The notes under the pieces: model-generated
The model's input: only the letters and a program-made list of their open reading frames with translations
Database searches by the model: none
What the model was told of the DNA's origin: nothing
Program-made: the position numbers and the translations under genes
Part shown: positions 42,559 through 62,400 of the stretch, one piece after another
Position numbering within the stretch: the stretch's first letter is position 1
Layout of the letters: every line of letters starts with the position of its first letter
Source of the DNA: Gemmiger formicilis
Lineage (GTDB): Bacteria > Bacillota > Clostridia > Oscillospirales > Ruminococcaceae
Direction: 5' to 3'
NCBI RefSeq assembly: GCF_900167555.1
Contig: NZ_FUYF01000001.1
Coordinates: forward strand, 310,001-374,000
Length of the DNA stretch: 64,000 nucleotides

Positions 42559-44061
42559 ATGGAGCAGAATAAGCCCCAGACCGAGCAGGAGCTGACCCAG
42601 CAGGCCGCTGTGCGCCGCCAGAAGCTGGCAGACCTGTGTGAAGCCGGTCATAACCCCTTTGAAATCACCAAATATGCGCAGGATGCGTACTCGGCCGACC
42701 TCAAAAATGAGTTTGCTGACCTTCCTGCCGAGGCTGAGACCGGAAAGATCGTCTCTCTGGCTGGCCGCATGATGTCCAAGCGCATCATGGGCAAAGCCAG
42801 CTTTGCCCATCTGCGCGACCAGAAGGGCGACATCCAGATTTTTGTCAAGCGCGACCTGCTGGGCGATGAAGCCTACGCCGCCTTCAAGAAGCTGGACATC
42901 GGTGACATCATCGGCGTCAAGGGCGAGGTGTTCCGCACGAAGATGGGCGAAATTTCTGTCCGCATCTCCGAGCTGACACTGCTCTCCAAGAGTCTGCTGC
43001 CCCTGCCCGAGAAGTTCCACGGCCTGACGGACCGCGAGGCGCGTTACCGCCAGCGCTACGTTGACCTCATCATGAACCCCGAGGTCAAGGACACTTTTGT
43101 CAAGCGCAGCCTGATTTTGAAGGAGATCCGCGCCTATCTGGACGAAAAGGGCTTCCTGGAGGTCGACACCCCCATCCTGACCCCGTTCGAGATCGGCGCG
43201 TCCGCCCGCCCCTTCTACACCCACCACAACACCCTGAACATGGACATGGTCCTGCGCATTGAGACCGAGCTGTACCTCAAGCGCCTGATCGTGGGCGGCA
43301 TGGACCGCGTGTATGAGGTTGGCCGCATCTTCCGCAACGAGGGCATGGATCCCAAGCATAACCCCGAGTTCACGACCATCGAGCTGTACCAGGCATTCAC
43401 CGACTTCCACGGCATGATGGATCTGGTCGAGGAAATGTACAAGCGCCTGGCCCTCAAGGTCTGCGGCAGCCTGGAGATCACCTACCAGGGCAAGCAGATT
43501 GATATGGGTCACTGGGAACGCCTGACGATGGTCGAGGCCGTCAAGAAGTATTCCGGCGTTGACTTCAACGACTGGAAAACCGACGAGGATGCCATCGCTG
43601 CCGCCAAGGAGCATCATGTAGAGCTGCCCGAGGTCCCGACAAAGGGCGCGATCCTGGCCGAGTTCTTCGACGCCTTTGTCGAGGATAAGCTCATCCAGCC
43701 CACCTTCATCTATGACTACCCCGTCGAGATCAGCCCGCTGGCCAAGCGCAAGCCCACCGACCCGGCCTTCACCGAGCGCTTTGAGTATTTCATCGACTGC
43801 ACCGAGTACGGCAACGCATTCAGCGAGCTGAACGACCCGATCGACCAGAAGGCCCGCTTCGAGCGCCAGGTCGCCGAGCGCAAGGCCATTGAGCCTGACT
43901 GCAAGGCCCAGGTCGACTACGACTACGTCAACGCCCTTGAGTACGGCCTGCCCCCCACGGGCGGCCTCGGCTTCGGCGTGGATCGCCTCGTCATGCTGCT
44001 GACCGACAGCGCGTCGATTCGTGACGTGCTGCTGTTCCCGACGATGAAGCCGATTGACTAA
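42559..44061 (+). CDS. lysS: Lysine-tRNA ligase, class II; host of the attachment site
   Basis: A 500-residue class II synthetase. An N-terminal OB-fold (residues ~55-165) binds the anticodon. The catalytic domain shows motif 2 VGRIFRNEGMDPKHNPEFT and motif 3 GLGFGVDRLVMLL near the end. Start ATG 42559 follows GAAAGGACG. The last codons (PTMKPID-stop) coincide with the left attachment site of the integrated element. The equivalent sequence at the right end reads PTMKPIDQ-stop, so insertion appears to have replaced the final codon and stop while keeping the enzyme intact. Confidence 0.97.
   Translation: MEQNKPQTEQELTQQAAVRRQKLADLCEAGHNPFEITKYAQDAYSADLKNEFADLPAEAETGKIVSLAGRMMSKRIMGKASFAHLRDQKGDIQIFVKRDLLGDEAYAAFKKLDIGDIIGVKGEVFRTKMGEISVRISELTLLSKSLLPLPEKFHGLTDREARYRQRYVDLIMNPEVKDTFVKRSLILKEIRAYLDEKGFLEVDTPILTPFEIGASARPFYTHHNTLNMDMVLRIETELYLKRLIVGGMDRVYEVGRIFRNEGMDPKHNPEFTTIELYQAFTDFHGMMDLVEEMYKRLALKVCGSLEITYQGKQIDMGHWERLTMVEAVKKYSGVDFNDWKTDEDAIAAAKEHHVELPEVPTKGAILAEFFDAFVEDKLIQPTFIYDYPVEISPLAKRKPTDPAFTERFEYFIDCTEYGNAFSELNDPIDQKARFERQVAERKAIEPDCKAQVDYDYVNALEYGLPPTGGLGFGVDRLVMLLTDSASIRDVLLFPTMKPID
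44036..44058. repeat. Left attachment site (attL) in the lysS 3' end
   Basis: A 23-bp sequence containing CCCGACGATGAAGCC, then G-ATTGAC. It matches 62549-62571 with one mismatch (G against T at position 17). Confidence 0.85.
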
Positions 44062-44104
44062 AAAGCATTGATTCCACGCCTTTTATCAACCCGGTTTGGC
44101 TGAT

Positions 44105-44124
44105 TTGACACCACATTGACACCA
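44105..44124. repeat. Left-end integrase arm-type repeats
   Basis: Two copies of TTGACACCA (44105-44113 and 44116-44124) spaced 11 bp apart. The same 9-mer recurs three times at 62401-62430. Confidence 0.65.
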
Positions 44125-44151
44125 AACTTGTGCAGAAAAGGCTTTACAAGA

Positions 44152-44194
44152 AAGCAGAGAGTTATCCTCTTTACGGATGACTCTCTGCTTTTTT
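44152..44194 (+). terminator. Element-borne terminator just downstream of lysS
   Basis: AAGCAGAGAG..ATCC pairs with GGAT..CTCTCTGCTT followed by TTTTG. It can terminate lysS, replacing the native terminator displaced to 62595. Confidence 0.8.
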
Positions 44195-44196
44195 GT

Positions 44197-44334
44197 TTAT
44201 GTAGTTGTGCATTTCTGCGCGGAAGCAATGAGGTGATACCATTCGCAGCTTTTACATTCCGGCAGGTCACCGCAGGCAGGAACGCCGGTATCCGGGTCAT
44301 CGGGGCAATTATAATAATCATATTTCCAATCCAT
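44197..44334 (-). CDS. Small Cys-rich protein, unknown function
   Basis: A 45-residue reading frame starting MDWKYDYYNCPDDPDTG with five Cys (10, 21, 27, 30, 43), including CKSC, and many acidic and aromatic residues. AGGAG lies seven bases before ATG 44334. It follows the SprT-like gene by 77 bp on the same strand and may be co-transcribed. The Cys pattern suggests a small zinc-bound fold. I do not recognise a family; the call rests on ribosome site, start and composition. Confidence 0.5.
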   Translation of the reverse strand: MDWKYDYYNCPDDPDTGVPACGDLPECKSCEWYHLIASAQKCTTT

Positions 44335-44411
44335 TTTGAAAGCTCCTGTTAAAATGTGCATTATAAAAATTGCCTACTCTCACTCGGCTGTTGTCTCTGT
44401 CTGATGGTCAC

Positions 44412-45062
44412 TTACTCGGTGGGTTCCATCTTCTCCATGCAATCACCGCAAAGGATGTTCACGGCTTTTGTGGCTCTCACGCTCTGGTGGCAGCAGGGGC
44501 AAATATATTTGCGGGTGCTGCTGGGCTTCTTGGTCTTGGGGGCTGTTCCGTTGCCTGCCCCTTTGGGGAGCGTTCCAATTACATCCCACAAGCTGACCGC
44601 CTCGCACATTTGAAGGTCTTGCCAGCCCTGTTCCTCGATGAAGTCCAGCAGCGGAAGTCCGGGGCTTGTAATCGTCCAACCGTATTTTGGATGCTTCTCA
44701 ACGCAAAGCCCGTGACTTTCGGCAATCTCCTTATACTTCCGATTGTGGTAAAAGTTCCCGGAACCGCTGGTATCTTTGATACCTTTTTCTGCCGCAAGAC
44801 AATGGCACATTTCGTGCAAAAGCGTGGCGCAGGTTTCCTCGATTGGGCGGCTAAGTGTGGCGCTGCTGATGTTGATTTCATATCGCCGCTCGTCTCCTGC
44901 CTGCCAGACCTTATTGCAAGTGAAATGACCATAAGCACCCACGGTCTTTTTTAGGCTGATGACGACTTCGGGCAGTTCCCCGTTGAAAAATCTGGCGTTC
45001 AGCAGACGGTACATTTTTTCAAGCTGTCCTGCAACGCGGCTGGTCTTGACGGTCTTTTTCAT
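44412..45062 (-). CDS. SprT-like zinc metallopeptidase domain protein
   Basis: A 216-residue protein. The SprT-like core has the zinc motif LLHEMCHCLA with His83, Glu84, His87, after a NARFFNGELPEVVISL segment typical of the family. The C-terminal ~40 residues form a zinc ribbon (CPCC...CGDC). Relatives include Spartan-type proteases that process DNA-protein crosslinks; a role in protecting or resolving relaxase-DNA intermediates is conceivable but unproven. Start ATG 45062 follows GAGAGG; a longer frame upstream lacks a site. Such genes are frequent on Firmicute plasmids and integrative elements. Confidence 0.85.
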   Translation of the reverse strand: MKKTVKTSRVAGQLEKMYRLLNARFFNGELPEVVISLKKTVGAYGHFTCNKVWQAGDERRYEINISSATLSRPIEETCATLLHEMCHCLAAEKGIKDTSGSGNFYHNRKYKEIAESHGLCVEKHPKYGWTITSPGLPLLDFIEEQGWQDLQMCEAVSLWDVIGTLPKGAGNGTAPKTKKPSSTRKYICPCCHQSVRATKAVNILCGDCMEKMEPTE

Positions 45063-45423
45063 TTTGAAAACCTCTCTTTCAAAGTTCACTTTTAAATCGC
45101 CTTTGGCGGGGGTGGGAATTATTGGCCCCAACCGGCGACCAAAAAGAGAGGCAAATAGAGGCTGTGGCAAGGGGAACGTGGAATACCGAAGCTGAGCGAG
45201 GATATGCCGCGAAAGCCCCTTGCCCAAAGCCGAGAGTTGCCCATAATACTGGGCGCGGTTGGGACAATCCCCCGTCGTTCCCCTGTTTGTGCCGGAAAAC
45301 GGCGCAAAGTCCAAACCTTCCTTAAAAAGCCCAAAAGTTTGAACTTTTGGTGCGCAGAAGCGGCCCCGTATAAAACAGGTATTTGGGCCGCGTCAAAACT
45401 TATGTTCAAAAGGAGCGTACAAA
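45063..45423. other. Intergenic region between SprT-like gene and resolvase
   Basis: No gene recognised. It presumably holds divergent promoters. A hairpin GCGGCCC / GGGCCGC (45349-45380), about 45 bp before the resolvase, is a candidate operator or recombinase-binding site. Confidence 0.4.
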
Positions 45424-45999
45424 ATGGCCTATTATGGCTACATCAGAGTGTCAACCAAAGGGCAGGTGCCCGGAACCTCTTTGACCGAGCAGGAGCAGCA
45501 GATAAAGGAGCGCTATCCGACTGCGACTATTGTAAAAGAGGCCGCGTCCGGCGCTCACGAACGGCAGGCATTTGATAACCTGTGCAAAACCTTACAGGCG
45601 GGTGATACTTTGGTGGTCTGCAAAATGGATAGGTTTTGCAGGTCAGCAAAGGAAGGCTTGCAGTATGTGGATTTGCTGCGGGATAAAGGTGTTGCCGTCC
45701 ACATTCTCAATATGGGCCTGTTGGACAACTCCCCTATGGGGCGGCTTGTGGCAACGATGCTGCTTGCTTTTGCTGAATTTGAAAGAGCGCAGATAATCGA
45801 GCGCACTCAGAGTGGCCGACAGGCAGCAATGGCAAAACCGGGCTTCCGGGATGGACGCCCACAAAAATTCACGGCATTGCAGGTGAAACACGCACTTGGG
45901 TTACTAAGTGAGTATAGTTATAAACAGGTAGAGGCCATGACAGGCATTTCCAGAAGCACCCTGCAAAGGGCTAAGAAGAAAGTTGAGGTACAACAATGA
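45424..45999 (+). CDS. Small serine recombinase (resolvase/invertase type)
   Basis: A 191-residue recombinase. The catalytic domain begins [14 protein letters not shown] with nucleophile Ser10; the [13 protein letters not shown] and [16 protein letters not shown] segments are family hallmarks. The last ~45 residues form a helix-turn-helix ([23 protein letters not shown]) that reads DNA. Size matches resolvases and invertases, not large integrases. Start ATG 45424 follows AAAGGAGCG. It overlaps the next gene by 4 bp. It might resolve multimers of the circular form; no invertible segment is evident. Confidence 0.92.
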
Positions 46000-46589
46000 A
46001 AATTACTATCAAACTGTCCGAAACAAACAATGCACTGCTCAACCGCGTGGTCAAGGAAGAAAAGGTGGACGCAAGCGAGTTCGCCAACAACGCTTTCCTT
46101 GACAAGTTCCTGCCGGTATCGGAAAAGCTGGGGATTGAAGCAGGCTTCATCCTTCAGGAGCATGAAGCCGGAACGCTGAATGCGTGGCTCGTCAAACAGA
46201 GCATCTCCCGTGGAATCCGTTGGCTGGGAAAGCACCCTATCCGTGACTGCGCCATTCTGAAACAGATTCTTGGACACTTCCCGTTTGACACGAAAGACAA
46301 CGGGAAAATCTCTACCTGCAACGAATGTGTGCAGTCGGATATGGATAGTGTGGTTGCACTGCTGAAGGAGCGTGTTTCCGGTTATGTATCCGCGAAGAAC
46401 GGATATAACGGGCTGGTGGAAGATGTTCTTGCAAATTGGGAGTACATCTGGAACGAAGCCATCGTATACAATGTGCTGGCCACGATTGTATACACCAACG
46501 AGCCGAAAAAAGATTTTGACTGGTATGACGGTCTGAAATTGCTGCATCTCATTGACTTTGCAGCATGGCAGCAGTGGTGTGATGCGTGA
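45996..46589 (+). CDS. Unknown protein coupled to the resolvase
   Basis: A 197-residue soluble protein that I do not recognise. The first ~35 residues ([20 protein letters not shown] then [14 protein letters not shown]) could be a ribbon-helix-helix-like segment, which would suit a DNA-binding or plasmid-type regulator. The remainder is mixed helical with several Trp. There are no membrane segments. Its ATGA overlap with the resolvase implies coupled translation and a linked job in element maintenance. Function unknown. Confidence 0.7.
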
Positions 46590-46753
46590 TGGTGCATCAC
46601 GGCAGACGGCTGCAAACCCAAGGGGGCAAGAACGGCGGAAAGTCGTTCTGATGGGGGCCGCAGCCCCCACTGACGGCAAGCGGGCCTTGTCGGCAGCGGG
46701 GAGTCCAGAGGGGGCACGCCCCTTTGGCAAGGTAAGCCCGCAAGGGCGGTGGG

Positions 46754-46787
46754 AGTTTCCGGGGAAACTGCCATACCTTGTATGGCA
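46754..46787. other. Candidate origin of transfer (oriT)
   Basis: Two adjacent inverted repeats: AGTTTCC-GG-GGAAACT (46754-46769) and TGCCATA-CCTTG-TATGGCA (46769-46787). They lie about 100 bp upstream of the relaxase gene in a 294-bp gap without genes, the usual place for a MobV oriT. The nick site cannot be assigned from sequence. Confidence 0.4.
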
Positions 46788-46883
46788 CATCAGTCCGCGA
46801 CTAAATGAGCTGCTTCGTTGTGCAGGGCATTTCAAGGTGTGGGCAGAGGGGACATGAACCCCGTATAGGAAAGTGAGATTACA

Positions 46884-47549
46884 ATGGCAAGTGTAGAGAA
46901 GTTTTCAGCGGGTGCAGTCCGCAATCAACTGCGGCACAATCGCCGCGAAATCGAACATTCCGGCAATCCTGACATAGACCCGTCTCGGCAGGGGCAGGAC
47001 TATGTTCTGTCCCCCGATAGGGGCATGACCGAGTACGACTATTTTTTACACCGCAAATCCGAACTGTACTGCTATAACCGCGATGATGTGAAAGTTATGG
47101 CAGGATGGATAGTAACCGCCCCGCAGGATTTAGACCCTGCCCGCTATGACGATTTTTTCTGTGCCACATACGATTTCATGGCAAATCGCTATGGGAAAGA
47201 AAATGTCGTACAGGCCATCGTCCATGATGACGAGGGCGGCCAGCCGCATTTGCATTTCTGCTTTATTCCTGTCGAGGAAGATTTGAAGCACGAACAGGGC
47301 TGCAAAATCTGTGCTAATGATGTTCTTGACCGCCGCGAACTGCGCAATTTTCACCCTGACCTGCAACGCTATCTGGACGAGCACGGTTTGGAAGATGCCC
47401 ATGTTATGACTGGCGTGACAAAGCGGCAGGGCGGCAACCGCACTGTCGCGCAGTTGAAAGCCGAGCGCGAGCAGGAATACCAGCAGGAAGTAGAGCGTCC
47501 CGCATTGTATTTTGGAGAATCCAAAATTGAACAGGGACTTCACTTTTAA
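46884..47549 (+). CDS. MobV-family relaxase, short form
   Basis: A 221-residue protein carrying the MobV (Pre/Mob) metal-binding core HDDEGGQPHLHF: His114, Glu117, His122, His124. FMANRYGKENVVQAIVH before it and NFHPDLQRYLDEHG after it match the family. It would nick one strand at oriT and pilot it to the recipient. Classical MobV proteins are 400-500 residues; here only the relaxase domain is present and the long coiled C-terminal part is absent. The next gene, a coupling protein, starts 9 bp after the stop. Confidence 0.85.
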   Translation: MASVEKFSAGAVRNQLRHNRREIEHSGNPDIDPSRQGQDYVLSPDRGMTEYDYFLHRKSELYCYNRDDVKVMAGWIVTAPQDLDPARYDDFFCATYDFMANRYGKENVVQAIVHDDEGGQPHLHFCFIPVEEDLKHEQGCKICANDVLDRRELRNFHPDLQRYLDEHGLEDAHVMTGVTKRQGGNRTVAQLKAEREQEYQQEVERPALYFGESKIEQGLHF

Positions 47550-47558
47550 GGGGCAACC

Positions 47559-48893
47559 ATGAAGCAGATTGTATGGATTATCAACGGCTATCTATATGGC
47601 GCTACGGTGATTCTACTGGTTGTGCTGGCACTGCTGGTGTATCTGCGTGGGCAGGCTAATCATCTGCCCAACCCGTTTGCCCGCAGGAACATCGTCTATC
47701 GCCCCAAAGAAAAGGCACAGGGCGTGTTGTTGGGGAAGAAATTCGGCCTGCTGGCTTATTCCCCCGAACAGGACGAGGGACACATTCTTGTAATGGGGCC
47801 ATCCGGCACAGGCAAGACAAGTGCCCTGTTGATTCCGACTTTGCGGAGTTGGCAGGGCACGGCTCTTGTGGTAGATATATCCGGCGACATATCGGCTAAT
47901 GTACATACAGAGAACAAAATCATTTTTGACCCTACGGCGGCGGACTGTATTCCGTATGATGTGTTTGCGTCCATTGACGCAGCCCCGGACGATACCGAGC
48001 GGCAAGAGCGTTTGGAGCAGCTGGCCTATCTGCTGCTGCCGGACAAGGCCAACGACAGCGAAGCAGGCGTATTTTTCACCAAGAACGGGCGCAAGATGAT
48101 AACGGCAGCCCTTATCTGCTACTATGGCATGGGCTGGGGCTTTATCGAAATCTGCGAGTTTTTCCTCGGCCATGATTGGCGCTCCCTGCTGAACGATATT
48201 GCCAAACAGGAAAACACCGCAGCCAACGCACATATTAGTTCCTTTGCCGGGGCCAGTGAGCAGAACACCGCAGGCTGCAAGCAAAGTGCAGATGACGCGC
48301 TCAAACTATTTGCAACCAACAGCAAAATTAAAAATGCACTTAGAAAAGTTCCAACTTATGAAAAATCTATCTGTCCGGCCACATTGGAGCAGAACAGCAT
48401 TTATATTTTCATCCCAGACGAAAAACTCAAAATCTATGGCGACCTGCTGCGCATTATTACGGCGCAGTCGATGGAATACTTTTCATCCAGACCGCCAGAA
48501 CACAAGCAGATGATTCTATTTTGTCTTGACGAATTTGCCTCGTTCGGCAAGCTGCAAATTACAGAGGCCCTGCGCAAGCTGCGGAAGCGCCACATCCGTA
48601 TTATGGTGCTGACCCAATCGCTGGCCGACCTCGATATGATTTACGGCAAGGACGAACGGAAAGCCATGCTTGGCAACTTTAAGTTTACCGTTCTGCTCGG
48701 CTGCAAGGATACCGATACGCAGGAATACTTTTCTAAAATGATAGGCGAAAAGCACACACTGCTGGCCGCCGACACCAGCCAGAAGCCGCAGCCAATCATT
48801 AAGCCCGCCGACCTCGCACACTTGGAGCAAGACCTATTTGTAATCTGCGATGACGGCGCAATACGGCTGTGCAAGAACTTTTACTTCAAATGA
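47559..48893 (+). CDS. VirD4/TraG-type coupling protein (T4CP)
   Basis: A 444-residue membrane ATPase that links a relaxase-DNA complex to a type IV secretion channel. The N-terminal ~35 residues contain a transmembrane helix (YGATVILLVVLALLVYL). Walker A is MGPSGTGKTS (Gly80, Lys86, Thr87); Walker B lies in MILFCLDEFASFG. RKRHIRIMVLTQSLADL is the conserved motif-III-like stretch. It is compact compared with full TraG proteins (~600). No mating-pore genes follow, so the element must borrow a channel. Terminator at 48926. Confidence 0.9.
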   Translation: MKQIVWIINGYLYGATVILLVVLALLVYLRGQANHLPNPFARRNIVYRPKEKAQGVLLGKKFGLLAYSPEQDEGHILVMGPSGTGKTSALLIPTLRSWQGTALVVDISGDISANVHTENKIIFDPTAADCIPYDVFASIDAAPDDTERQERLEQLAYLLLPDKANDSEAGVFFTKNGRKMITAALICYYGMGWGFIEICEFFLGHDWRSLLNDIAKQENTAANAHISSFAGASEQNTAGCKQSADDALKLFATNSKIKNALRKVPTYEKSICPATLEQNSIYIFIPDEKLKIYGDLLRIITAQSMEYFSSRPPEHKQMILFCLDEFASFGKLQITEALRKLRKRHIRIMVLTQSLADLDMIYGKDERKAMLGNFKFTVLLGCKDTDTQEYFSKMIGEKHTLLAADTSQKPQPIIKPADLAHLEQDLFVICDDGAIRLCKNFYFK

Positions 48894-49097
48894 CGTTGCC
48901 AAAAAACGTTTCGTAAGCGGCAACCGGGAGCAGTTCGCTTGGATTTCTCCAAGTGGGCTGCTCCCTTTTCTTTGGCGTAAATCTTTCCGGGGCAGCTTGG
49001 GGCAAGTGATTTAGTTTATTTCTAAAAAAGATTGCTTTTTAGTTTTTATGAAAATACCTGCCACATACTGCCCCAACGAACGTTTTTTGGCAATGTA
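48894..49097. repeat. ~205-bp segment bounded by imperfect ~20-bp inverted repeats
   Basis: CGTTGCCAAAAAACGTTTCG at 48894 and, inverted, ACGAACGTTTTTTGGCAATG ending at 49097 pair except for one base insertion and one mismatch. The terminator at 48926 lies inside. It may be a small IS-derived or MITE-like element before the restriction locus. Confidence 0.5.
48926..48973 (+). terminator. Terminator after the coupling protein
   Basis: GGGAGCAG..CTTGG pairs with CCAAG..CTGCTCCC, followed by TTTTCTTT. Confidence 0.85.
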
Positions 49098-49132
49098 ACT
49101 GGAAAAAGGTTCCCATTTTTATGGATTTATGG

Positions 49133-49138
49133 TACAAT
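49133..49138 (+). promoter_or_regulatory. Likely -10 box of the restriction-modification operon
   Basis: TACAAT 48 bp before the ORF; TTCCCA lies 17 bp upstream as a weak -35. Confidence 0.4.
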
Positions 49139-49185
49139 TCTAATATCGTGTAAGTGTACCCAAATGCGGGAGTTGGGGGTGTAGG

Positions 49186-52100
49186 ATGTCAACCAAGAGG
49201 CCGAAGCCGGAACTGTCGGCTCACTTTATCCGTGATAAGCGGCTCCTTAAAGCGGCTGATACCGCTAAATACAATGCAAGGTTGAAGGAAATCGACCTGC
49301 CGGATGATTATGCCATTTACGGTTATGAACCATCCAGTGGGAGAAAACCCGCTGCTTACTGGGTGTGTAAGCAAAGTGTTGGCGAATGCCCGGAATGTGG
49401 TACACCCTATCTGGAGGATGCGATTGCCAGCGTGTCGGAATCCAAGCTGACGCATTATTGCAGAGTAGCAATTCCGCACGAGGGGGAAAAGCCCACCTAC
49501 GATACTCACCCTGCAACGCTTTATTTGCGCCGCATACGATGGATGTGCTATAACTGCTATTCTAAGCGGAAGACATACAATGCGAAAATGCAGGATGATT
49601 CCCAACTTGTGGATGAGAAAGATAGAAAGCTGACCTTGCAGTTGAAGAAATATCTTGGGCAGCAAGCTATGCATATGGAGATAAATACGCTTGCGGAAAT
49701 ATTTGATATTTCCCCGCATACAGTCAAAAATTGCTTTGACAAAGCATTGGCGGAGTATGAAAAAAGGCGCAATTGGGATGATATTTCTACGCTCGGTTTG
49801 TACACTGTAACACTGAATGTGCAGGGGCAACAAACAAATTTTTGCCTATGCGCGGACGTGGATACTGAAAGCCTGATTGAATTGTTCGCCTACGAGGACA
49901 AAGAGGCCGCAGCAAACTTTTTGAGCAAGCTAAAGAATAAGCAGAATATCCAACGTGTTTTTATCAGCATAGACAGCGCGGCATTTAATTTCGCCAAAAC
50001 CAATTTCCCTATCAAAACAATTATGGTAGATAGGCTGGATGTTCGCAAGCGCTTGCTGAACGGATTGGAAACGGTCAAAAAAGGCAACGATGACAGCCAA
50101 GACTTCCCCATACTGCGGCGGCATTGGAAGTTGCTAAAAAATGTGGAAGAGGCAATCCCGGCCAACAGTAAGGATTATGTCTTTCTCAAGGAAGTGCTGA
50201 ATGCATTCCCCCACGTGGGTGATGCATACTGGCTGAAAGAAGCCGGTATGGATATTTACCGTAAAACTACGGGCCAGTGCAAGCTGGTGAACGATTGGAT
50301 TTCCAGCGACAAGTACAATATCCTGCCGTATGAACAGTTAGAGCAATATATGATTCAGGCGCAGGAGCCAGTTGTACGCTTTGCAGTGCAGTACAATGGC
50401 GTTGACCGTAGCAGATATGAAAGGGCTATATTAGAAGCGGAAAGCCCCTTGATAAGTTATGTCGGCCTGACCGGCACAAGTAAATCTGCGCTTTGGTCGC
50501 GGGCTGCGTCTTTACAGATGATTCGTGCCCGCGTTTTGTACGGTGCTGCGATGATGGCAAACTATTTTGCGGCGCAGGAACCAAACGAAAAATCTCACGA
50601 AGAATACGCGATACATAAGGGAATGTATTTTACAACGGTTGACCGCATAACAACTGCAAAAATTAACACACCTGCGGTTAAAGCAGAAACCACGCCGGAA
50701 ATCTATCTCCATAATTTTAGAATCCCATTATCCATATATCCAACCCTGTTAAGTTACGGTCTGACAGAATACAGGGGTGTATTGTTGGATTTGAAACCGT
50801 TGAAAAAAGACGGACTATCGAGAAACAAGCAGACGGAGGAAACAATGTCGGACAAAATTGCCTTTGACGCACTGTGGGATGAATCCCCGATTGATGTCAC
50901 CCCAGAAGTGAACTTTATTTGGAGCATCGCCAACAAACTGCGCGGCTCCTATATGCCGGATAAGTACGGCGATGTCATTATCCCGATGACGATTCTGCGC
51001 CGCTTGGAGTGTGCCTTGGAGCTGCACAAGGAAGCTGTTTTGGCCAAATTTGCAGAAAATCCGAACTATCCGCCGAAGGCAATGTACCGCATTTCCGGAT
51101 ATCAGTTCTATAACACCTCGCCCTACACGCTGAAAGAACTGTGCAACGAGCCGGACAACATCAAATCCAATTTCAAAGTGTATATTCAAGGCTTCTCCGC
51201 CGAAGTGCAGGAAATCTTTAATGGCCTTGAAATGTTCAGTCACATCGACAAGATGGATAAGGACGGCTGTCTGTTCAGCGTGGTGCAGGCATTTGCCGAC
51301 TTGGATTTGGACCCAAAGACCTACGACAGCATCAAGATGGGCTATATCTTCGAGCATCTGATTGGCAAGTTCTATCAGAATGTAGACGCAGGTCAGTTTT
51401 ACACAGGTCGTGACATTATCAAGTGCCTTGTGGCTGTGCTTATCAGCGAAGGCTGTGATGATATTTTCGATGATGGCAAGGTCGTAACTGTCTGCGACCA
51501 AGCCTGCGGAACGGGCGGTATGCTTAGCACGGCGTACAGCTTTATCAAGCACTACAATCCCAGCGCCGATGTGCGCCTGTTCGGGCAGGAGTTTATGCCC
51601 CAGTCCTATGCTGTCGGTCTGGCAGAGATGATGATTAAAGGGCAGAATATCGAGAACTTCCGCAATGCCGATACTTTCAAAGAGGATTGCTTCCCCAACA
51701 TCAAGATGCGCTTTGTGCTGGAAAACCCGCCTTTTGGGACCCCGTGGGCCGGAAAAGATGCCAAGGCCGGACAGGAAGATGCCGTCCGCAATGAGTTCAA
51801 GCGCGGCAAGGATGGCCGCTGGGGCGCAGGTCTGCCGAGCGGCGGCGATTCCCAGTTGATTTTTATGCAGTCGGCTATTGATAAGATGGACGACAAAGTT
51901 GGCCGCGCTGCGATTATCGAGAACGGCAGCCCTCTGTTTACAGGCGGTACGGCATCCGGCGAAAGCCAGATTCGCCGCTGGATTCTGGAACAGGATTTTC
52001 TGGAAGCCATTATCGCGCTGCCCACCGACCTGTTTTACAACACCGGCATTGCCACCTATGTCTGGATTTTGTCTAAAAACAAGCGCCCGGAACGCAAGGG

Positions 52101-52938
52101 CTATGTGCAGTTGATTGATGCCACCAGCATCTTCCACAAGCTGCGCAAAGCCGCAGGCAACAAGAAAAACGAACTGCTGCCGGAGGACCGCGACAGAATC
52201 GTTAAGCTGTACACGGCGTTTGAAGAGAACGAATACTGCAAAATCTTCAAAAACGAAGAATTTATGTATCGTGAGTATACGGTCATGCAGCCGTTGCAGC
52301 GCAGCTATGCCATCACGGAGGAGCGCATCCAGCAGATGCTGGCGGACGGCACACTGAATTCCGTATATGACCCCGCCAAGGTCGATGAACTGGAAGAACA
52401 GGGCTCGCAGATTTCCGTCAAGGACAAAATGAAGCTGGACAAGCTGTATGAGCAGAAGCCTGTCTACGAGGCTATTATTTCTGATTTGCAGGATGCTGCT
52501 TCGGATGAAATCTATCTTTCCCCGGAAGCGTTTATGCCGGTATTGCGCAAGGCACTGGCAAAAGTGACCGATGATAAAAAGCTGCTGGACAAAATCGCGG
52601 ATGGCTTGTCTGTGATGGATAAGAACGCCGAAATCCAGCGGGATAAGCACGGCGAAATTCTCTACGATAAAGATTCCAAAGATACAGAGCGTGTGTCTTA
52701 CGAGGAATCCATTGATGATTACATGGCGCGGGAAGTTTTGCCCCATGTGCCGGATGCAAAGGCGTTCTGGGAAGAAAAGGCCGATGCTAAGAAGCCTGTT
52801 ATCAAGACGGGTGCGGAGATTCCGTTCACGCAGTATTTCTACAAGTACGAGCAGCCTGTACCCAGTGAGGAACTGGCAAAGCAGTTTATGGAACTGGAAC
52901 AGTCTGTCAGCCAGCGCATTGCGAAGCTGTTCGGGTAA
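49186..52938 (+). CDS. In-frame ORF: ISL3-transposase-like protein joined to HsdM
   Basis: One uninterrupted 1250-codon frame. Residues 1-~552 resemble an ISL3-family transposase: a zinc finger (CPEC near 66, CYNC near 113), a helix-turn-helix (NTLAEIFDISPHTVKNC) and an RNase H-like core. The second catalytic Asp region (VFISIDSAAFNFA) and the IMVDRLDV strand are recognisable. At the position where ISL3 proteins have LGIDE this one reads LGLYT, so the first catalytic Asp seems lost. No clear third acidic residue is visible either. Residues 554-1250 are HsdM. There is no stop between them, but an internal GGAGG-ATG at 50845 could start HsdM independently. The ORF is therefore either a true fusion or two in-frame products. 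No IS terminal repeats are evident around the transposase-like part. Starts at ATG 49186 behind GGGGGTGTAGG. Confidence 0.75.
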   Translation: MSTKRPKPELSAHFIRDKRLLKAADTAKYNARLKEIDLPDDYAIYGYEPSSGRKPAAYWVCKQSVGECPECGTPYLEDAIASVSESKLTHYCRVAIPHEGEKPTYDTHPATLYLRRIRWMCYNCYSKRKTYNAKMQDDSQLVDEKDRKLTLQLKKYLGQQAMHMEINTLAEIFDISPHTVKNCFDKALAEYEKRRNWDDISTLGLYTVTLNVQGQQTNFCLCADVDTESLIELFAYEDKEAAANFLSKLKNKQNIQRVFISIDSAAFNFAKTNFPIKTIMVDRLDVRKRLLNGLETVKKGNDDSQDFPILRRHWKLLKNVEEAIPANSKDYVFLKEVLNAFPHVGDAYWLKEAGMDIYRKTTGQCKLVNDWISSDKYNILPYEQLEQYMIQAQEPVVRFAVQYNGVDRSRYERAILEAESPLISYVGLTGTSKSALWSRAASLQMIRARVLYGAAMMANYFAAQEPNEKSHEEYAIHKGMYFTTVDRITTAKINTPAVKAETTPEIYLHNFRIPLSIYPTLLSYGLTEYRGVLLDLKPLKKDGLSRNKQTEETMSDKIAFDALWDESPIDVTPEVNFIWSIANKLRGSYMPDKYGDVIIPMTILRRLECALELHKEAVLAKFAENPNYPPKAMYRISGYQFYNTSPYTLKELCNEPDNIKSNFKVYIQGFSAEVQEIFNGLEMFSHIDKMDKDGCLFSVVQAFADLDLDPKTYDSIKMGYIFEHLIGKFYQNVDAGQFYTGRDIIKCLVAVLISEGCDDIFDDGKVVTVCDQACGTGGMLSTAYSFIKHYNPSADVRLFGQEFMPQSYAVGLAEMMIKGQNIENFRNADTFKEDCFPNIKMRFVLENPPFGTPWAGKDAKAGQEDAVRNEFKRGKDGRWGAGLPSGGDSQLIFMQSAIDKMDDKVGRAAIIENGSPLFTGGTASGESQIRRWILEQDFLEAIIALPTDLFYNTGIATYVWILSKNKRPERKGYVQLIDATSIFHKLRKAAGNKKNELLPEDRDRIVKLYTAFEENEYCKIFKNEEFMYREYTVMQPLQRSYAITEERIQQMLADGTLNSVYDPAKVDELEEQGSQISVKDKMKLDKLYEQKPVYEAIISDLQDAASDEIYLSPEAFMPVLRKALAKVTDDKKLLDKIADGLSVMDKNAEIQRDKHGEILYDKDSKDTERVSYEESIDDYMAREVLPHVPDAKAFWEEKADAKKPVIKTGAEIPFTQYFYKYEQPVPSEELAKQFMELEQSVSQRIAKLFG
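50845..52938 (+). CDS. hsdM: Type I restriction-modification methyltransferase subunit HsdM
   Basis: The HsdM part, 697 residues if started at ATG 50845, which has ACGGAGGAAACA immediately upstream. It begins with an HsdM N-terminal helical domain (FIWSIANKLRGSYMPDKYGD). The methyltransferase core has the SAM motif ACGTGGML at residues 220-227 and the N6-adenine catalytic motif NPPF starting at 294. A long C-terminal helical region contacts HsdS and the other subunits. It modifies adenines in the site chosen by HsdS. The neighbours are hsdS 12 bp on, then FRG and hsdR. The independent start is inferred from the ribosome site; the same codons are also open from the upstream transposase-like frame. 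Confidence 0.92.
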   Translation: MSDKIAFDALWDESPIDVTPEVNFIWSIANKLRGSYMPDKYGDVIIPMTILRRLECALELHKEAVLAKFAENPNYPPKAMYRISGYQFYNTSPYTLKELCNEPDNIKSNFKVYIQGFSAEVQEIFNGLEMFSHIDKMDKDGCLFSVVQAFADLDLDPKTYDSIKMGYIFEHLIGKFYQNVDAGQFYTGRDIIKCLVAVLISEGCDDIFDDGKVVTVCDQACGTGGMLSTAYSFIKHYNPSADVRLFGQEFMPQSYAVGLAEMMIKGQNIENFRNADTFKEDCFPNIKMRFVLENPPFGTPWAGKDAKAGQEDAVRNEFKRGKDGRWGAGLPSGGDSQLIFMQSAIDKMDDKVGRAAIIENGSPLFTGGTASGESQIRRWILEQDFLEAIIALPTDLFYNTGIATYVWILSKNKRPERKGYVQLIDATSIFHKLRKAAGNKKNELLPEDRDRIVKLYTAFEENEYCKIFKNEEFMYREYTVMQPLQRSYAITEERIQQMLADGTLNSVYDPAKVDELEEQGSQISVKDKMKLDKLYEQKPVYEAIISDLQDAASDEIYLSPEAFMPVLRKALAKVTDDKKLLDKIADGLSVMDKNAEIQRDKHGEILYDKDSKDTERVSYEESIDDYMAREVLPHVPDAKAFWEEKADAKKPVIKTGAEIPFTQYFYKYEQPVPSEELAKQFMELEQSVSQRIAKLFG

Positions 52939-52950
52939 GGTGGTGGAACT

Positions 52951-54216
52951 ATGCGTGAAATGAAAGATAGCGGAATTGAATGGATTGGCAATATCCCGGC
53001 TTCATGGAAATCGGTTCCGATGAGGTATCTCTTTAGAGAATGCACCACAAAGAACAGACTGGGGCAAGAAAAAACGGCACTAAAATTCACCTATGGAACG
53101 ATTATTCCAAAAACGAATTTTGATGCTAATACGGATGACTATGTAGCCAATACAATAATGTCTTATACCGTTGTGCATCCCGGTGTCATAATGATTAACT
53201 GTCTTAATTTAAATTACGACTTTGTAAGCCAACGAATTGGACTTGTTAAGGATTATGGCGCAATAACATCAGCATACTTAGCTATCGAACCAAACAATCA
53301 GGTGTTGTCTGCTTATGCAACCTATCAACTAAAATCGTGGGATGCCGCGAAAGCATTCCATAATATGGGAACAGGCGTAAGAAAAACTTTGGATTTTTCA
53401 GAATTGGGGAAAAAGCACTTTGTACTTCCTACATTAGGAGAACAGAAAAACATCGTTGCATTTCTCGATTCTAAATGCTCCGAAATTGATGCCATCTCTG
53501 CTGACATTCAGAAAGAAATCGAAACATTAGAGCAGTACAAGCGTTCCCTTGTATTTGAAGCGATTTCCAAAGGAATCAATGGAGAAAAAGCAGCCAATAC
53601 GTCATCCGATATTTGGAAGGAAATTCCTCAAAGCTGGAAATTGGTTGACATTAAATATCTCTTTGAGATTGTAAAACGAATTGCGGGCCGTGAGGGGTAT
53701 AATATTCTCTCTGTCACGCAAAAAGGCTTAAAAGTAAAAGATATTTCAGGAAATCAGGGCCAAATTGCAGAAAATTACAGCGGTTATCAGTTTGTATTTC
53801 CCTCTGATTATGTTATGAACCACATGGATTTACTTACTGGTTGGATTGATTGTTCAGACCAATTTGGTGTTACAAGTCCAGACTATCGTGTGTTTAGACT
53901 TAGGGATAAAACTCAAAATGATACCGAGTATTACAAATATGTAATGCAATGTTGCTATATGTGCAGAATCTTCTATTCACTTGGTCAAGGTGTATCCACA
54001 CTTGGACGTTGGCGCTTACAAACATCTGCCTTCATGAATTTCAAAGTTCCTGTTCCTCCTCTTCATGAACAAAAAGAAATTGCACGCTATTTGAATGATA
54101 AATGCAAAGAGATTGAACTTTCTATTGAGCAAAAAAGAAAACAACTCGAATTGCTTAGTGCCTACAAAAAATCTCTTATCTACGAATATGTGACGGGTAA
54201 AAAGGAAGTGATTTAA
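52951..54216 (+). CDS. hsdS: Type I restriction-modification specificity subunit HsdS
   Basis: A 421-residue protein with two target recognition domains. Each begins with a short WIGNIPASWK- or WKEIPQSWK-type lead and ends in a conserved helix: LPTLGEQKNIVAFLDSKCSE near residue 160 and PPLHEQKEIARYLNDKCKE near 370. This gives two half-sites separated by coiled-coil spacers. The gene is clearly more AT-rich than hsdM and hsdR, as is usual for specificity genes exchanged by recombination. The recognition sequence cannot be read. ATG 52951 follows AAGGTGG; Met4 is an alternative start. Its stop overlaps the FRG gene start (TAATG). Confidence 0.95.
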   Translation: MREMKDSGIEWIGNIPASWKSVPMRYLFRECTTKNRLGQEKTALKFTYGTIIPKTNFDANTDDYVANTIMSYTVVHPGVIMINCLNLNYDFVSQRIGLVKDYGAITSAYLAIEPNNQVLSAYATYQLKSWDAAKAFHNMGTGVRKTLDFSELGKKHFVLPTLGEQKNIVAFLDSKCSEIDAISADIQKEIETLEQYKRSLVFEAISKGINGEKAANTSSDIWKEIPQSWKLVDIKYLFEIVKRIAGREGYNILSVTQKGLKVKDISGNQGQIAENYSGYQFVFPSDYVMNHMDLLTGWIDCSDQFGVTSPDYRVFRLRDKTQNDTEYYKYVMQCCYMCRIFYSLGQGVSTLGRWRLQTSAFMNFKVPVPPLHEQKEIARYLNDKCKEIELSIEQKRKQLELLSAYKKSLIYEYVTGKKEVI

Positions 54217-55151
54217 TGCAGGAAATGTCTATAAGTACCGTAGACGAATATGTGAAAGCAATCTGCGATATTAGGAAAACATTTCATAAAGAATATCCTA
54301 TGGTCAACGAGGTGCCGCTATTTCGCGGACAAGCAGATGTTTCGTATGAATTGCTCCCCTCCATTGCTCGTGGAAGACATAGTGAAATCGATATTACAAT
54401 TTTTAATGAAGAACGAAATCTACTGGAAATGGCAAAATATAAGTTGCCTTCAATTTTTACCGATGACTTAAAGCCAATAGAGTTATTAGCATTAGCACAG
54501 CATCATGGTATTCCTACCAGACTGTTGGATGTAACGGAAAATGCCCTTGTAGCACTGTACTTTGCATGCGCATCTTGTGGTGACAAGGATGGAGAAGTTA
54601 TTGTCTTTAAGGAAAATTCCAAAAGCGTAACGAATTATCCGATTTTGCAGGCTGTTGCAGACTCATGTAGGTTATGCGAAGGAACTTGGACTTTTGCAAC
54701 AGACTTTGTTAAGAAGGCCATGAGTTTCAACTATTTTGCGGAACAGCGATATTTGGCACAAGTTCTTGATAAGAAATTCGATGAACAACCTGCCAATGGG
54801 ATTCCTACCCAATTTGATATTTGGATTGATGGTCTGCTGAAAGAGCCTCTTTTTATTTATGCTCCGTTTACAAGCATCCGTCAAAAAATGCAGCAGGGGC
54901 GTTACATTCTTTTTCCAAACAGAATTGGCTATGACCATAACGGCACTGTAATTATTAGTCAAGAAATAGCTGCTATTCCCAAAGACCACAACAGCATTAC
55001 AATGAAAATACAAATCAATAGTGCATCAAAGGCTCAAATTTTATCAGACCTTCGGCTGTTTGGAATCAGTAGAGAATCTCTGTTTGCCGATAGCACGGAT
55101 ACCGTTTGCGAAGAAATAACAAAAGATGCATACAATACAATCAACGACTAA
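54216..55151 (+). CDS. FRG-domain protein inside the type I RM operon
   Basis: A 311-residue soluble protein. The FRG domain is seen as VPLFRGQADVSYELLPSIAR near residue 35 and ALAQHHGIPTRLLDVTENAL near 105, followed by VALYFAC. The domain's chemistry is not established. It starts at the last base of the hsdS stop codon and ends 48 bp before hsdR, so it is a genuine part of the operon. AT-rich like hsdS. FRG proteins recur in restriction and other phage-defence contexts; an accessory defence role is inferred. No nuclease or ATPase motif is evident. Confidence 0.85.
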   Translation: MQEMSISTVDEYVKAICDIRKTFHKEYPMVNEVPLFRGQADVSYELLPSIARGRHSEIDITIFNEERNLLEMAKYKLPSIFTDDLKPIELLALAQHHGIPTRLLDVTENALVALYFACASCGDKDGEVIVFKENSKSVTNYPILQAVADSCRLCEGTWTFATDFVKKAMSFNYFAEQRYLAQVLDKKFDEQPANGIPTQFDIWIDGLLKEPLFIYAPFTSIRQKMQQGRYILFPNRIGYDHNGTVIISQEIAAIPKDHNSITMKIQINSASKAQILSDLRLFGISRESLFADSTDTVCEEITKDAYNTIND

Positions 55152-55199
55152 ATATCAAACTTCGGCATTGTTTTGTAATATGAATTGGGAGGTGTTTCC

Positions 55200-58100
55200 G
55201 TGAAAAGCATCGGAACAGAACGCGACTATCAGCGTTATATCATTGATTATTTAATTGATAATAACGGCTACATAGAGCGCAAATGCAAAACTGATTATGA
55301 CCGCACCACGGCCATGGACCGCAAACTGCTGTTTCGCTTTCTGGAAACGACACAGCCGCACACAATGGCGGCATTGCGGAAAATCTATAACGGGCAGACC
55401 GAGGAAACCGTCGCCAAATTTATACTCCAGAGCATTGACAACAAGGGCAGCAGCCTTATCGAAACGCTGAAATCCGGCATTGAGATTTCCAATATGCATC
55501 TGGACCTGCTGTACGGTAAGCCCGCCACCGATTACAACATCGACCTTGTCGCCAAGTACAATGCCAACATTTTCTCCATCATGGAGGAAGTCTGGATTAA
55601 CGATGACCAGCGCATCGACCTTGTTGTGTTCCTGAACGGTTTTGCCATTGCGACCTTTGAGCTGAAATGCCAGAGCACAGGTCAGAACTACCGCATGGCA
55701 ATCAAGCAGTATTCCGAGGACCGCGACCAGAAGAACCGCTTGTTCCTGTTCAAAGCGGGCGCTCTGGTCAACTTTGCCATGGACCTCGACACCTGCTATA
55801 TGACCACCAAGCTGGACGGTCTGGGCACACGCTTTATCCCGTTCAACCGTGGGCGCGGCGAGGGTGTCAACACCGGAGAAGGCAACCCCTTGGATGACGG
55901 CGTGGACGATTATCCGATGCATTATATGTGGGATGATATTCTGCGCCGCGACAGCCTGATTGAACTGATTACCAAGTTCGTATTCATCCAGCGTGAACAG
56001 GTCGTGGACGAACTGACAGGGAAAAAGTCCATCAAGGAAAAGCTGATTTTCCCGCGCTACCATCAGCGCGATGCCGTCCGCCAGCTTTTGGCGGATGCCG
56101 AGTACAACGGCACACAGCTTAATTATTTAATTGAACATTCCGCGGGTTCCGGAAAAACCAATACCATCGCGTGGCTGGCGCATCGGCTGGTATCCCTGCA
56201 TGATACCCAAAACCATATTGTCTATGACAGCGTTCTGGTCATTACAGACCGTGTGGTGGTAGACCGCCAGTTGCAGGATGCAATCAAGGGTATCGACCAT
56301 AAGAGTGGACTTGTCTGCACCATTGATGACAAAAAGACCTCTGCCGACCTTGCCGATGCGCTGAAAGGCAACTATAAAATCATTGTCACCACGATTCAGA
56401 AGTTCCTCTATGTAGATTTCTGGAAGCTGGCGCAGAACCAGAACAACAAGACCTTTGCCATTATCATTGACGAAGCCCATTCGTCCACGTCCGGCAAGGA
56501 TATGATTGCGGTCAAAAATACGCTGGGGCAAAATGATGGCCCCGAAGAAGCCGATGCGCAGGATGCTATCGAGAATGAAATCCAGCGCCACGGCAAGGCA
56601 CCCAACGTGTCGGTCTTTGCCTTTACTGCCACGCCCAAGCCGATGACGCTGCGCCTGTTTGGCCGTGAAAGTATTGATGCAGACGGACATCCCGTGTATC
56701 AGCCGTTCCACCTGTACAGCATGAAGCAGGCCATCGAGGAGGGGTATATCCTTGATGTGCTGCAAAATTATATCGAATACAAGACCTACTACAAGCTGAA
56801 CAAGACCATCGAAGACGACCCGGAGATGAAGACGATTGCCGCCAAGCGGCAGATTGCACGCTATATTGATTTGTTTGACGATAACATCAATCAGCGCGTC
56901 AATATCATTGTCGAGCATTTCCGTTCCACTGTTATGCAGGAACTCGGCGGGCAGGCAAAAGCAATGGTTATCACGGCATCCCGCGAGGCGGCGGTGAAGT
57001 ATCGTCAGGCATTTGAGGATTATGTCACCCGCCATAATTACAAGGATGTAAAAGCGCTGGTGGCGTTCTCCGGCAAAGTGAAAATTGACGATACCGAATA
57101 CACCGAACCGAGCATGAATGGCTTTGCTGAGGATAAGCTGCCAAAGGTGTTTGACGGGGACGAGTATAACGTTCTGCTGGTGGCGAATAAGTATCAGGTC
57201 GGTTTCGACCAGCCGAAGCTCTGCGCCATGTATGTGCTGAAAAAGCTGCGTGGTGTAAATGCGGTGCAGACGCTTTCCCGCTTGAACCGTGTATGCCCGC
57301 CCTTTGACAAAAAGGTCGTGGTCATGGACTTTGTGAACCATGCAGAGGAAATGGAAGATGCCTTTGCGCCATTCTATACCACTACGGTTTTGTCCAACAC
57401 GGCCACGATTGCCCAGCTCCGCGAACTGGAAAATAAGATTGACGGTTACAATGTTCTGGATGACCGCGATGTGGATACGGTTGCGAGCATCGTCTACAAT
57501 CCGAAAGGGAAGCGCACCACAGCCAAAGAGGACCGTCTGGTTTACCAGTGCATCCAGCGTGCTGTGAATGTGCTGAAAAATCAGTTCAACGAGGACCACC
57601 AGCGTGCTTTTACCAAAAACTGTCGTGGGTTTGTACGCCTGTATGAGTTCCTGTCGATGGCTTCCAGCTTTGGCGACCCGGAACTACACAAAAAATATGT
57701 GTTTGTCAACCTGCTGCTGACCTATCTCGTCGTTGGCAACAGCGGCGGCATCAGCTTGAAGGATAAGATTCAAGCTACGAATTTTGTGCAGGAAAGTCAG
57801 GGCGATAAGGGCAACAAGCAGCGCCATGTCAGCGCCCCGAACGTAAAGTTGAGCGGGGCCGATGTTGGTCTGACCGTGGATGAGGTAAAGCACCTGTCGG
57901 AAATTATTGACGAGGTGAACTCCCGCGCAGGCAAGGGCTATGATAGCAGCGCCATGACGAAAGTTATGCTGCAAATCAAGGACCTGCTGCTGCATTCGGA
58001 AAAGCTGAAGACCTCCGCCAAGAACAACACCGAGCAGGACTTTGAGTTCAGCTTCTATGACAATACCGATGACGCGCTGATTGAGGGACTTTCCCAGAAT

Positions 58101-58202
58101 CAGGATTTCTTCAGCCTGCTGCTGAGCAATGACGACATCAAGCACCGTGTGCTGGGCGTGTTCCTGCATGAGGTTTATAAGGAACTGCGGGAGCAGCCGT
58201 AA
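55200..58202 (+). CDS. hsdR: Type I restriction enzyme subunit HsdR
   Basis: A 1000-residue DNA translocase and endonuclease. The N-terminal PD-(D/E)xK nuclease has Asp140 and ELK (Glu154, Lys156). The helicase part has Walker A SAGSGKT (Lys319), DEAH (424-427), and motif III FAFTATPKP; later motifs include FSGKVKIDD and the QTLSRLNR-type motif VI. The C-terminal helical region binds the methyltransferase. It starts at GTG 55200 behind GGGAGGT; the TTG further upstream is unlikely. Together with HsdM and HsdS this forms a complete type I restriction-modification complex acting in the cytosol on unmodified DNA. Confidence 0.95.
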   Translation: MKSIGTERDYQRYIIDYLIDNNGYIERKCKTDYDRTTAMDRKLLFRFLETTQPHTMAALRKIYNGQTEETVAKFILQSIDNKGSSLIETLKSGIEISNMHLDLLYGKPATDYNIDLVAKYNANIFSIMEEVWINDDQRIDLVVFLNGFAIATFELKCQSTGQNYRMAIKQYSEDRDQKNRLFLFKAGALVNFAMDLDTCYMTTKLDGLGTRFIPFNRGRGEGVNTGEGNPLDDGVDDYPMHYMWDDILRRDSLIELITKFVFIQREQVVDELTGKKSIKEKLIFPRYHQRDAVRQLLADAEYNGTQLNYLIEHSAGSGKTNTIAWLAHRLVSLHDTQNHIVYDSVLVITDRVVVDRQLQDAIKGIDHKSGLVCTIDDKKTSADLADALKGNYKIIVTTIQKFLYVDFWKLAQNQNNKTFAIIIDEAHSSTSGKDMIAVKNTLGQNDGPEEADAQDAIENEIQRHGKAPNVSVFAFTATPKPMTLRLFGRESIDADGHPVYQPFHLYSMKQAIEEGYILDVLQNYIEYKTYYKLNKTIEDDPEMKTIAAKRQIARYIDLFDDNINQRVNIIVEHFRSTVMQELGGQAKAMVITASREAAVKYRQAFEDYVTRHNYKDVKALVAFSGKVKIDDTEYTEPSMNGFAEDKLPKVFDGDEYNVLLVANKYQVGFDQPKLCAMYVLKKLRGVNAVQTLSRLNRVCPPFDKKVVVMDFVNHAEEMEDAFAPFYTTTVLSNTATIAQLRELENKIDGYNVLDDRDVDTVASIVYNPKGKRTTAKEDRLVYQCIQRAVNVLKNQFNEDHQRAFTKNCRGFVRLYEFLSMASSFGDPELHKKYVFVNLLLTYLVVGNSGGISLKDKIQATNFVQESQGDKGNKQRHVSAPNVKLSGADVGLTVDEVKHLSEIIDEVNSRAGKGYDSSAMTKVMLQIKDLLLHSEKLKTSAKNNTEQDFEFSFYDNTDDALIEGLSQNQDFFSLLLSNDDIKHRVLGVFLHEVYKELREQP

Positions 58203-58283
58203 ACGGCGTGTAGGGCAACCAATTACAAAATTGACCGCCTGAGCATCATTCAAATGCATCTGTAAAACTAAAAATACACTTTT

Positions 58284-58320
58284 AAGGAGTGGCTGTGAAA
58301 GCAGCTGCTCCTTATTTTTT
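58284..58320 (+). terminator. Terminator after hsdR
   Basis: AAGGAGTGGCTG pairs with CAGCTGCTCCTT (two wobble pairs) followed by ATTTTTT. Confidence 0.8.
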
Positions 58321-58329
58321 GCAACTTTA

Positions 58330-58370
58330 ACAGCATACTGCACTATACGGGTAAAGTTACAGCATACTGC
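58330..58370. repeat. Direct repeats upstream of the primase gene (iteron-like)
   Basis: ACAGCATACTGC occurs at 58330-58341 and 58359-58370, each preceded by a CTTTA- or AAGTT-type stretch and followed by TATACG. Period 29 bp. May be an origin or an operator. A TATAAT lies at 58407-58412. Confidence 0.5.
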
Positions 58371-58467
58371 CGTTATACGCTAATAGTTGTTTCCCCTATA
58401 TGGCACTATAATTTTAGCGTGCACAGAAATTATGAAAGGAAAACATGGCGCGCTATGAAATTGAATT

Positions 58468-60771: not shown

Positions 60772-60781
60772 GGGGACACTT

Positions 60782-60979: not shown

Positions 60980-60989
60980 TTCAGAATGG

Positions 60990-61022
60990 ATCCCTGATTG
61001 GGCCTGCGGCCCACTCAGGGAT
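60990..61022 (+). terminator. Hairpin after excisionase
   Basis: ATCCCTGA..GGGCC pairs with GGCCC..TCAGGGAT, followed by TTTATCTG; a likely terminator between xis and int. Confidence 0.65.
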
Positions 61023-61082
61023 TTATCTGAACATATCACATGACACCAGAATCGTAGAAAAACGTAATATATAGACTGGCAA

Positions 61083-62396: not shown

Positions 62397-62400
62397 GCGT

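Follow-up and report, generated by a model that had tools for sequence, protein, structure and literature searches.

Within a 64,000-nucleotide stretch of the Gemmiger formicilis contig NZ_FUYF01000001.1 (hereafter the window), the methyltransferase gene of a type I restriction-modification (R-M) system, hsdM, forms the second part of a longer open reading frame (ORF). The first part of this frame encodes a protein related to ISL3 transposases, hereafter referred to as the N-part. The features of this gene are as follows, with residue numbers counted from the start of the long protein.

49186..52938, + strand: ISL3-like protein joined in frame to HsdM, 1250 codons, ATG start (ORF listing)
49186..50844, + strand: ISL3-like N-part, 553 codons (family and profile matches)
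N-part residues 68, 71, 121 and 124: zinc-finger cysteines; ~147-186: helix-turn-helix (HTH); ~200-453: RNase H-like core; ~454-553: tail with no match
50835..50839, + strand: Shine-Dalgarno sequence GGAGG, 5 nt before the internal ATG, duplex energy -9.5 kcal/mol
50845..52938, + strand: complete hsdM, 697 amino acids (aa), with its own start codon (family matches, alignment to relatives)

Codons 1-553 are ISL3-like and codons 554-1250 are a type I HsdM, with no stop codon between the two. A previous, sequence-only reading of this DNA had described a single open frame of 1250 codons holding an ISL3-like part and a complete HsdM, and its coordinates agree exactly with the ORF listing. Of 2000 first-order Markov sequences, none remained open over 553 codons. 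For the 163 codons that end at the junction the result was again 0 of 2000, and in this stretch the two alternative frames contain 11 and 10 stops. The open frame of the N-part is therefore not due to chance, and a tail lying in a different frame is ruled out, as the other frames are full of stops. A search of the genome found the N-part in a single copy.

The HsdM part is full length, with the HsdM_N and N6_Mtase domains and the NPPF and DQACGTGG motifs, and matches the PADLOC family MTase_I PDLC03029. In several relatives (L013, L014 and L016) the start codon falls, in the alignment, at the position of its Met1 (50845). All 88 in-frame ATG, GTG and TTG codons of the ORF were scored by the duplex energy of the Shine-Dalgarno region with the 16S tail, which ranked 49186 first (-9.7 kcal/mol) and 50845 second (-9.5), with the third codon at -8.0 kcal/mol. 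The good internal ribosome site and ATG reported at 50845 by the earlier reading are thus confirmed, GGAGG at 5-nt spacing being the second-best of the 88. Because the two best sites are those at 49186 and 50845, and the latter start is aligned with the starts of relatives, two products are expected, and this is probably a two-start gene from which both the long ISL3-HsdM protein and free HsdM are made. Their masses, estimated from length, are expected to be ~140 kDa and ~79 kDa, respectively. That readthrough and internal initiation yield two forms of HsdM had also been proposed before; it is a natural expectation from the strong internal ribosome site, a conserved or functional design of the fusion being at most plausible.

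The N-part is related to ISL3 transposases according to several profile comparisons. Pfam DDE_Tnp_ISL3 (PF01610) matches residues 221-399 (E 3.6e-8, 33.9 bits, above the gathering cut-off of 23), PHROG 5749, labeled "transposase", matches with E 4.5e-25, and alignment of the N-part to a 10-member ISL3 alignment gives a probability of 99.3% (E 7.5e-21, 26% identity over 314 columns), with the HTH aligned too. The NCBIfam ISL3 model NF033550 matches with E 2e-18, its 66.6 bits being far under the equivalog cut-off of 180. Sequence identity is 18-24% to 13 aligned ISL3 proteins, which come from two sets with some proteins in both. The order of the zinc-finger cysteines, the HTH region and the RNase H-like core are common to the N-part and ISL3 transposases, but the N-part has 30-odd extra N-terminal residues, an insertion in the core, a ~100-residue unmatched tail, and HsdM fused to it.

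All four zinc cysteines (C68, C71, C121 and C124) are kept in the alignment to ISL3 relatives, and so are D282, the second Asp, and E417, the Glu. The Asp-Glu of the ISL3 "GIDE" motif has become Y206-T207, and the first catalytic Asp is thereby lost; this agrees with the sequence-only reading, which had described an ISL3-like part without that residue, and the homology matches place Tyr206 at the Asp column. The columns of the GIDE Asp, D282 and E417 are those I take to be the ISL3 catalytic triad. Neighboring residues of the N-part have changed as well, with FHV replaced by LDV and the Asn after the Glu by Ser. With conservation defined as agreement among nine or more of the ten ISL3 proteins, the N-part retains 7 of the 12 conserved columns in the zinc-finger stretch and 18 of 53 in the core. 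No terminal inverted repeats above the shuffled level were found around the N-part when its left flank (48894-49186) was compared with 50500-50900 and with 50700-50850, the best scores being 17 in both comparisons, where shuffled sequences average 18.3 and 16.8. As such repeats were not found, the N-part is not an ordinary insertion sequence, and since its residues are degenerate and the first Asp is lost it is very probably not an active transposase. Judging from these alignments, it is a very divergent, degenerate ISL3-derived protein.

Searches of whole genomes at the family (148 genomes, E 1e-5), order (394, E 1e-12), phylum (398, E 1e-8), genus (35, E 1e-3) and class (391, E 1e-9) level, in sets that overlap, gave no close relative of the N-part. 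At those thresholds the only weak ISL3 matches are in G134 (E 3.6e-7) and G716 (E 7.2e-10); weaker ones in the order and class sets would have missed the thresholds. Within the genus, none of the other 34 genomes gave a match to the N-part at E 0.001. Neither viral contigs nor genome contigs yielded a close relative, both being searched with short exact peptide patterns that relatives at ~40-60% identity would escape. A tblastn search of plasmids returned 267 records, of which the 40 listed are ~21-25% identical and all annotated as ISL3 transposase, and the same search of phages returned 4 records (~24-25%), annotated as transposase or hypothetical.

Loss of the triad in ISL3-like proteins is not unique to the N-part, since the first Asp is also missing from the ISL3-like "transposase" of the Clostridium difficile plasmid pCd18_2 (L104:702-2009), in which LSING replaces LGIDE. 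This protein is 25% identical to the N-part and is encoded by a stand-alone gene, with no methyltransferase fusion; it is found 100% identical in six viral contigs. Among the ten ISL3 proteins it has degenerated furthest, with 54 of 94 leave-one-out conserved positions kept, and is perhaps another repurposed ISL3 protein. The N-part is more degenerate still, with 27 of 72 kept by a nearly equal measure.

Relatives of the HsdM part were compared at 90 loci, namely the best 80 of 242 from genome contigs, 7 viral loci, and 3 loci from the family search (65-67% identity). Some of these depend on each other (L046 and L047 share a contig, L004 and L077 sit on contigs that are equal in length and apparently identical, and others are close kin), and the upstream DNA is short in a few, with 37 bases before the match in L096 and 99-498 bases in seven other loci. 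None of the 90, at ~62-73% identity to the window HsdM, has an ISL3-HsdM fusion. The in-frame open codons before the start of the match number at most 65, leaving aside L045, whose 240 were rejected because the match there had been joined across a separate gene upstream. When the N-part was compared with the ORFs of at least 60 aa in the 90 loci, one weak match was obtained, in L042 (E 0.0036), to a protein that is AAA ATPase-like by sequence, and it was taken as chance.

The genes upstream of hsdM in these loci are varied. Among 39 scanned neighbors (plus strand, within 300 bases, at least 120 aa, from the 80 loci with an upstream ORF of 87 looked at), 11 match AAA_13, 3 match WYL and 2 match AAA_14/DUF4143, and no ISL3 family is among the best 25 of 44 families. 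Twelve more distant HsdM loci, six from the genus and six from the family (39-45% identity), have at most 51 open upstream codons and no match to the N-part at E 10. In the genus, HsdM is present in 4 of the 34 other genomes, and is just 39-42% identical to that of the window. With no relative having the fusion, nothing shows that selection keeps it, and a conserved design finds no support at either the 90 or the 12 loci. Whether functional or accidental, the fusion is a singleton. A stop codon between the two parts in relatives, an outcome that the sequence-only reading had named as telling against it, was not seen, but only since no relative has the N-part.

The surroundings of the gene are listed below.

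48885..49104: nested imperfect palindrome of 220 bases with 15-bp perfect arms TTGCCAAAAAACGTT, between virD4 and the promoter-like site
49110..49138, + strand: promoter-like site, with a TG before the -10 hexamer, 47 nt before the start of the long gene (pattern scan)
52951..54216, + strand: hsdS (family matches)
54216..55151, + strand: FRG-domain gene between hsdS and hsdR (PADLOC candidate family PDC-S15, E 1.8e-140)
55185..58202, + strand: hsdR (family matches), start probably GTG 55200
44036..62564: integrative element carrying the R-M system, 18.5 kb, at the 3' end of lysS, with 16-bp direct repeats at its ends
46884-47549: MobV relaxase (family match)
47559-48893: VirD4-like protein (family match)
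61155-62396: tyrosine-integrase-like ORF, so named from its sequence

By its genes, hsdM followed by hsdS, the FRG gene and hsdR, the locus is a type I R-M system. HsdR probably starts at GTG 55200 rather than TTG 55185, the Shine-Dalgarno energies of these candidates being -11.5 and +0.4 kcal/mol. The promoter-like site is weak evidence, because 6 such sites were found on both strands of 48800-51000 where 3.0 are expected from shuffles. The palindrome (z -7.9) contains a terminator-like hairpin at 48926-48965, and its exact 15-bp arms occur nowhere else in the same genome or in the 34 other genomes of the genus. Across 146 family genomes, DNA of virD4 and the spacer following it gave, besides itself, just four short matches of 25-44 bases. 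An 18-base version of the palindrome has exact matches in 10 viral contigs.

The direct repeats of the integrative element lie at 44036-44051, the end of lysS, and at 62549-62564, and a small resolvase is also among its genes; the integrase, lysS and SprT-like genes are presumed to be such from their sequences. Copies of the element's left 206 bases (44036-44241), 96-97% identical, are present in G928:C32 and also in G000:C72, a different contig of the window's genome. Two loci of G928, which belongs to the same genus, match the window through a block of SprT-like, MobV and VirD4 genes as far as position 48891; beyond that point they have other genes, and one of them has a distant HsdM match (E 1.8e-18, 24% identity). 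In L122-L125 (G928 contigs C70 and C52) this block carries different cargo, followed by genes that resemble those for Tn7-type transposition proteins. This suggests a slot for defence cargo after virD4, and since the G928 backbone carries other cargo, the R-M system with its ISL3-like leader looks exchangeable, starting just past virD4.

Compared with an ordinary type I HsdM, residues 554-1250 are alike and hsdS and hsdR adjoin, but the window gene adds 553 in-frame codons. The closest parallels are found in other systems. According to one source, Ecl18kI, probably SsoII, and EcoRII are type II methyltransferases with N-terminal HTH repressor domains (PMC12707154). In these dual-function proteins a DNA-binding part stands N-terminal to the methyltransferase, the place taken here by the N-part with its putative HTH, but here the methyltransferase is a type I subunit, the additional domain is transposase-derived, there is a second, internal start, and the regulator is putative, by analogy. 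The same source describes McrBL and McrBS of E. coli, where internal initiation in one frame gives a form without the N-terminal DNA-binding domain (PMC12707154); those proteins are unrelated, and internal initiation is predicted here. It also describes Mycoplasma gallisepticum, where a C gene upstream of hsdM heads the hsd operon (PMC12707154). A putative DNA-binding regulator is thus first in both hsd operons, but it is a separate C protein there, and ISL3-derived and fused here. Neither an ISL3-HsdM fusion nor any other type I fusion of a DNA-binding part to a methyltransferase is among the literature matches listed. The statement of the sequence-only reading that no such type I system had been described stands to this extent, but N-terminal DNA-binding fusions to a methyltransferase are known in type II, as the source above reports.

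The explanation I favor, tentatively and without giving it quite an even chance, is that a degenerate ISL3-derived DNA-binding protein heads the type I R-M operon in frame with hsdM, and that two products are made, the long one minor and possibly autoregulatory. Ribosomes starting at 49186 would make the ~140-kDa ISL3-HsdM protein, and those starting at 50845 normal HsdM, which would assemble with HsdS and HsdR as usual. The long form would be a minority partner, made whenever the N-part is translated. If active at all, it may bind DNA through its zinc finger and HTH, DNA binding being, by analogy, the most plausible role of the N-part; the predicted binding place would most plausibly be its own promoter and the adjacent palindrome. 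Such binding would tie expression of the operon to the HsdM protein, as in the type II dual-function methyltransferase repressors. A mixed complex of long and short HsdM is plausible, because comparable fusions assemble or work in two sources: an engineered HsdM carrying a nuclease domain at its N-terminus formed a complex with HsdS and a shorter fragment and retained methylation (PMC6158711), and an EcoKI HsdM-HsdS fusion is functional, its purified form being active once HsdR and extra HsdM were added (PMC3510504).

A bolder version of this explanation would have the type I operon run by a domesticated, catalytically dead ISL3 transposase, with the long form reading the palindrome as its ancestor read transposon ends and reporting the abundance of HsdM, and the internal start supplying free HsdM. 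I consider this version unlikely. If it is true, the gene would be to type I systems what the dual-function methyltransferase-repressors are to type II, with a sensor derived from a transposase. More generally, if the long form is functional, it would show how the DNA-binding half of a transposase can come to control a mobile element's restriction system, and would extend methyltransferase-regulator fusions from type II to type I. If it is not, the locus is a clean example of the shuffling of defence cargo on integrative elements, in which the own start of hsdM lets an accidental fusion be tolerated.

Several observations weigh against the autoregulatory explanation, in addition to the absence of the fusion from all the HsdM loci, near and distant, and the surplus of promoter-like sites. 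Pfam HTH_Tnp_ISL3 matches residues 147-186 with E 0.0028, under its gathering threshold, and the HTH keeps just 2 of 7 conserved columns, which weakens the case for DNA binding. Three-base periodicity is weak at ~50356-50760, at and past the end of the ISL3 homology. In addition, PMC6158711 reports that just one N-terminal HsdM fusion could be expressed, and that it gave no restriction. The main competitor is a harmless accident, in which an unrelated upstream gene lost its stop codon or was joined during cargo exchange and now runs into hsdM, so that HsdM comes from the internal ribosome site and the long form is a functionless by-product. Since the arrangement is absent from every relative compared, a fusion that arose by accident and is tolerated comes close in likelihood to a functional one; the varied upstream neighbors of hsdM in relatives and the other cargo following virD4 on the G928 backbone also fit an accident, and neighboring genes will be in the same frame in one case out of three. 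Yet the N-part has kept an intact 553-codon frame in spite of its low identity to ISL3 proteins, and has the best Shine-Dalgarno site of the whole frame, which together suggest that it has been kept as a protein, and the long form would then be made at every translation of the N-part. I therefore regard the harmless accident as a serious possibility, but one that is probably not the explanation.

A true obligate fusion, in which the long protein is the working methyltransferase subunit and the ISL3 part a second DNA-binding module, is consistent with the lack of a stop between the parts, the retained zinc cysteines and the strength of the site at 49186. It is nevertheless improbable, given that the internal start at 50845 is nearly as strong and placed where relatives start, and that no relative has the fusion. 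I judge an error of assembly or sequencing that hides a stop codon or joins two fragments to be equally improbable: the N-part is in no second genome searched, which fits such an error, but the ORF ends ~12.5 kb from the nearer end of the 375,470-base contig, the frame is open for the 163 codons leading up to the junction where the other frames are closed, and the junction falls exactly at a good ribosome site. As for an ordinary, recent ISL3 insertion next to hsdM, which would account for the family-level homology, it is scarcely credible and was rejected: the first catalytic Asp is missing, no terminal inverted repeats were found, and the N-part is single-copy in its genome and absent from the 34 others of the genus. 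The sequence-only reading had itself mentioned an active, recently inserted element as an outcome that would speak against it, and the divergence of the N-part, its lost Asp and the lack of terminal repeats found all point away from one.

Two further observations concern the DNA upstream of hsdM in the relatives. Proteins of ~760 aa are encoded directly upstream of hsdM in L013, L016, L018, L019, L061, L063, L065, L080, L082, L083 and L098. The AAA_13 neighbors, whose assignment to individual loci was inferred from their sequences, are what I take to be a possible RloC/PrrC-like partner. A GTCC-(spacer)-GGGAC-like inverted motif, a pattern picked after viewing the sequences, is absent before 50845 and 49186 in the window. 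Nine of 89 loci (L005, L013, L014, L081-L084, L088 and L098; one of the 90 was dropped as too short) have it in the 150 bases that precede hsdM. In these bases 0.45 are expected from simple shuffles, and the motif could be an operator or a -35 region.

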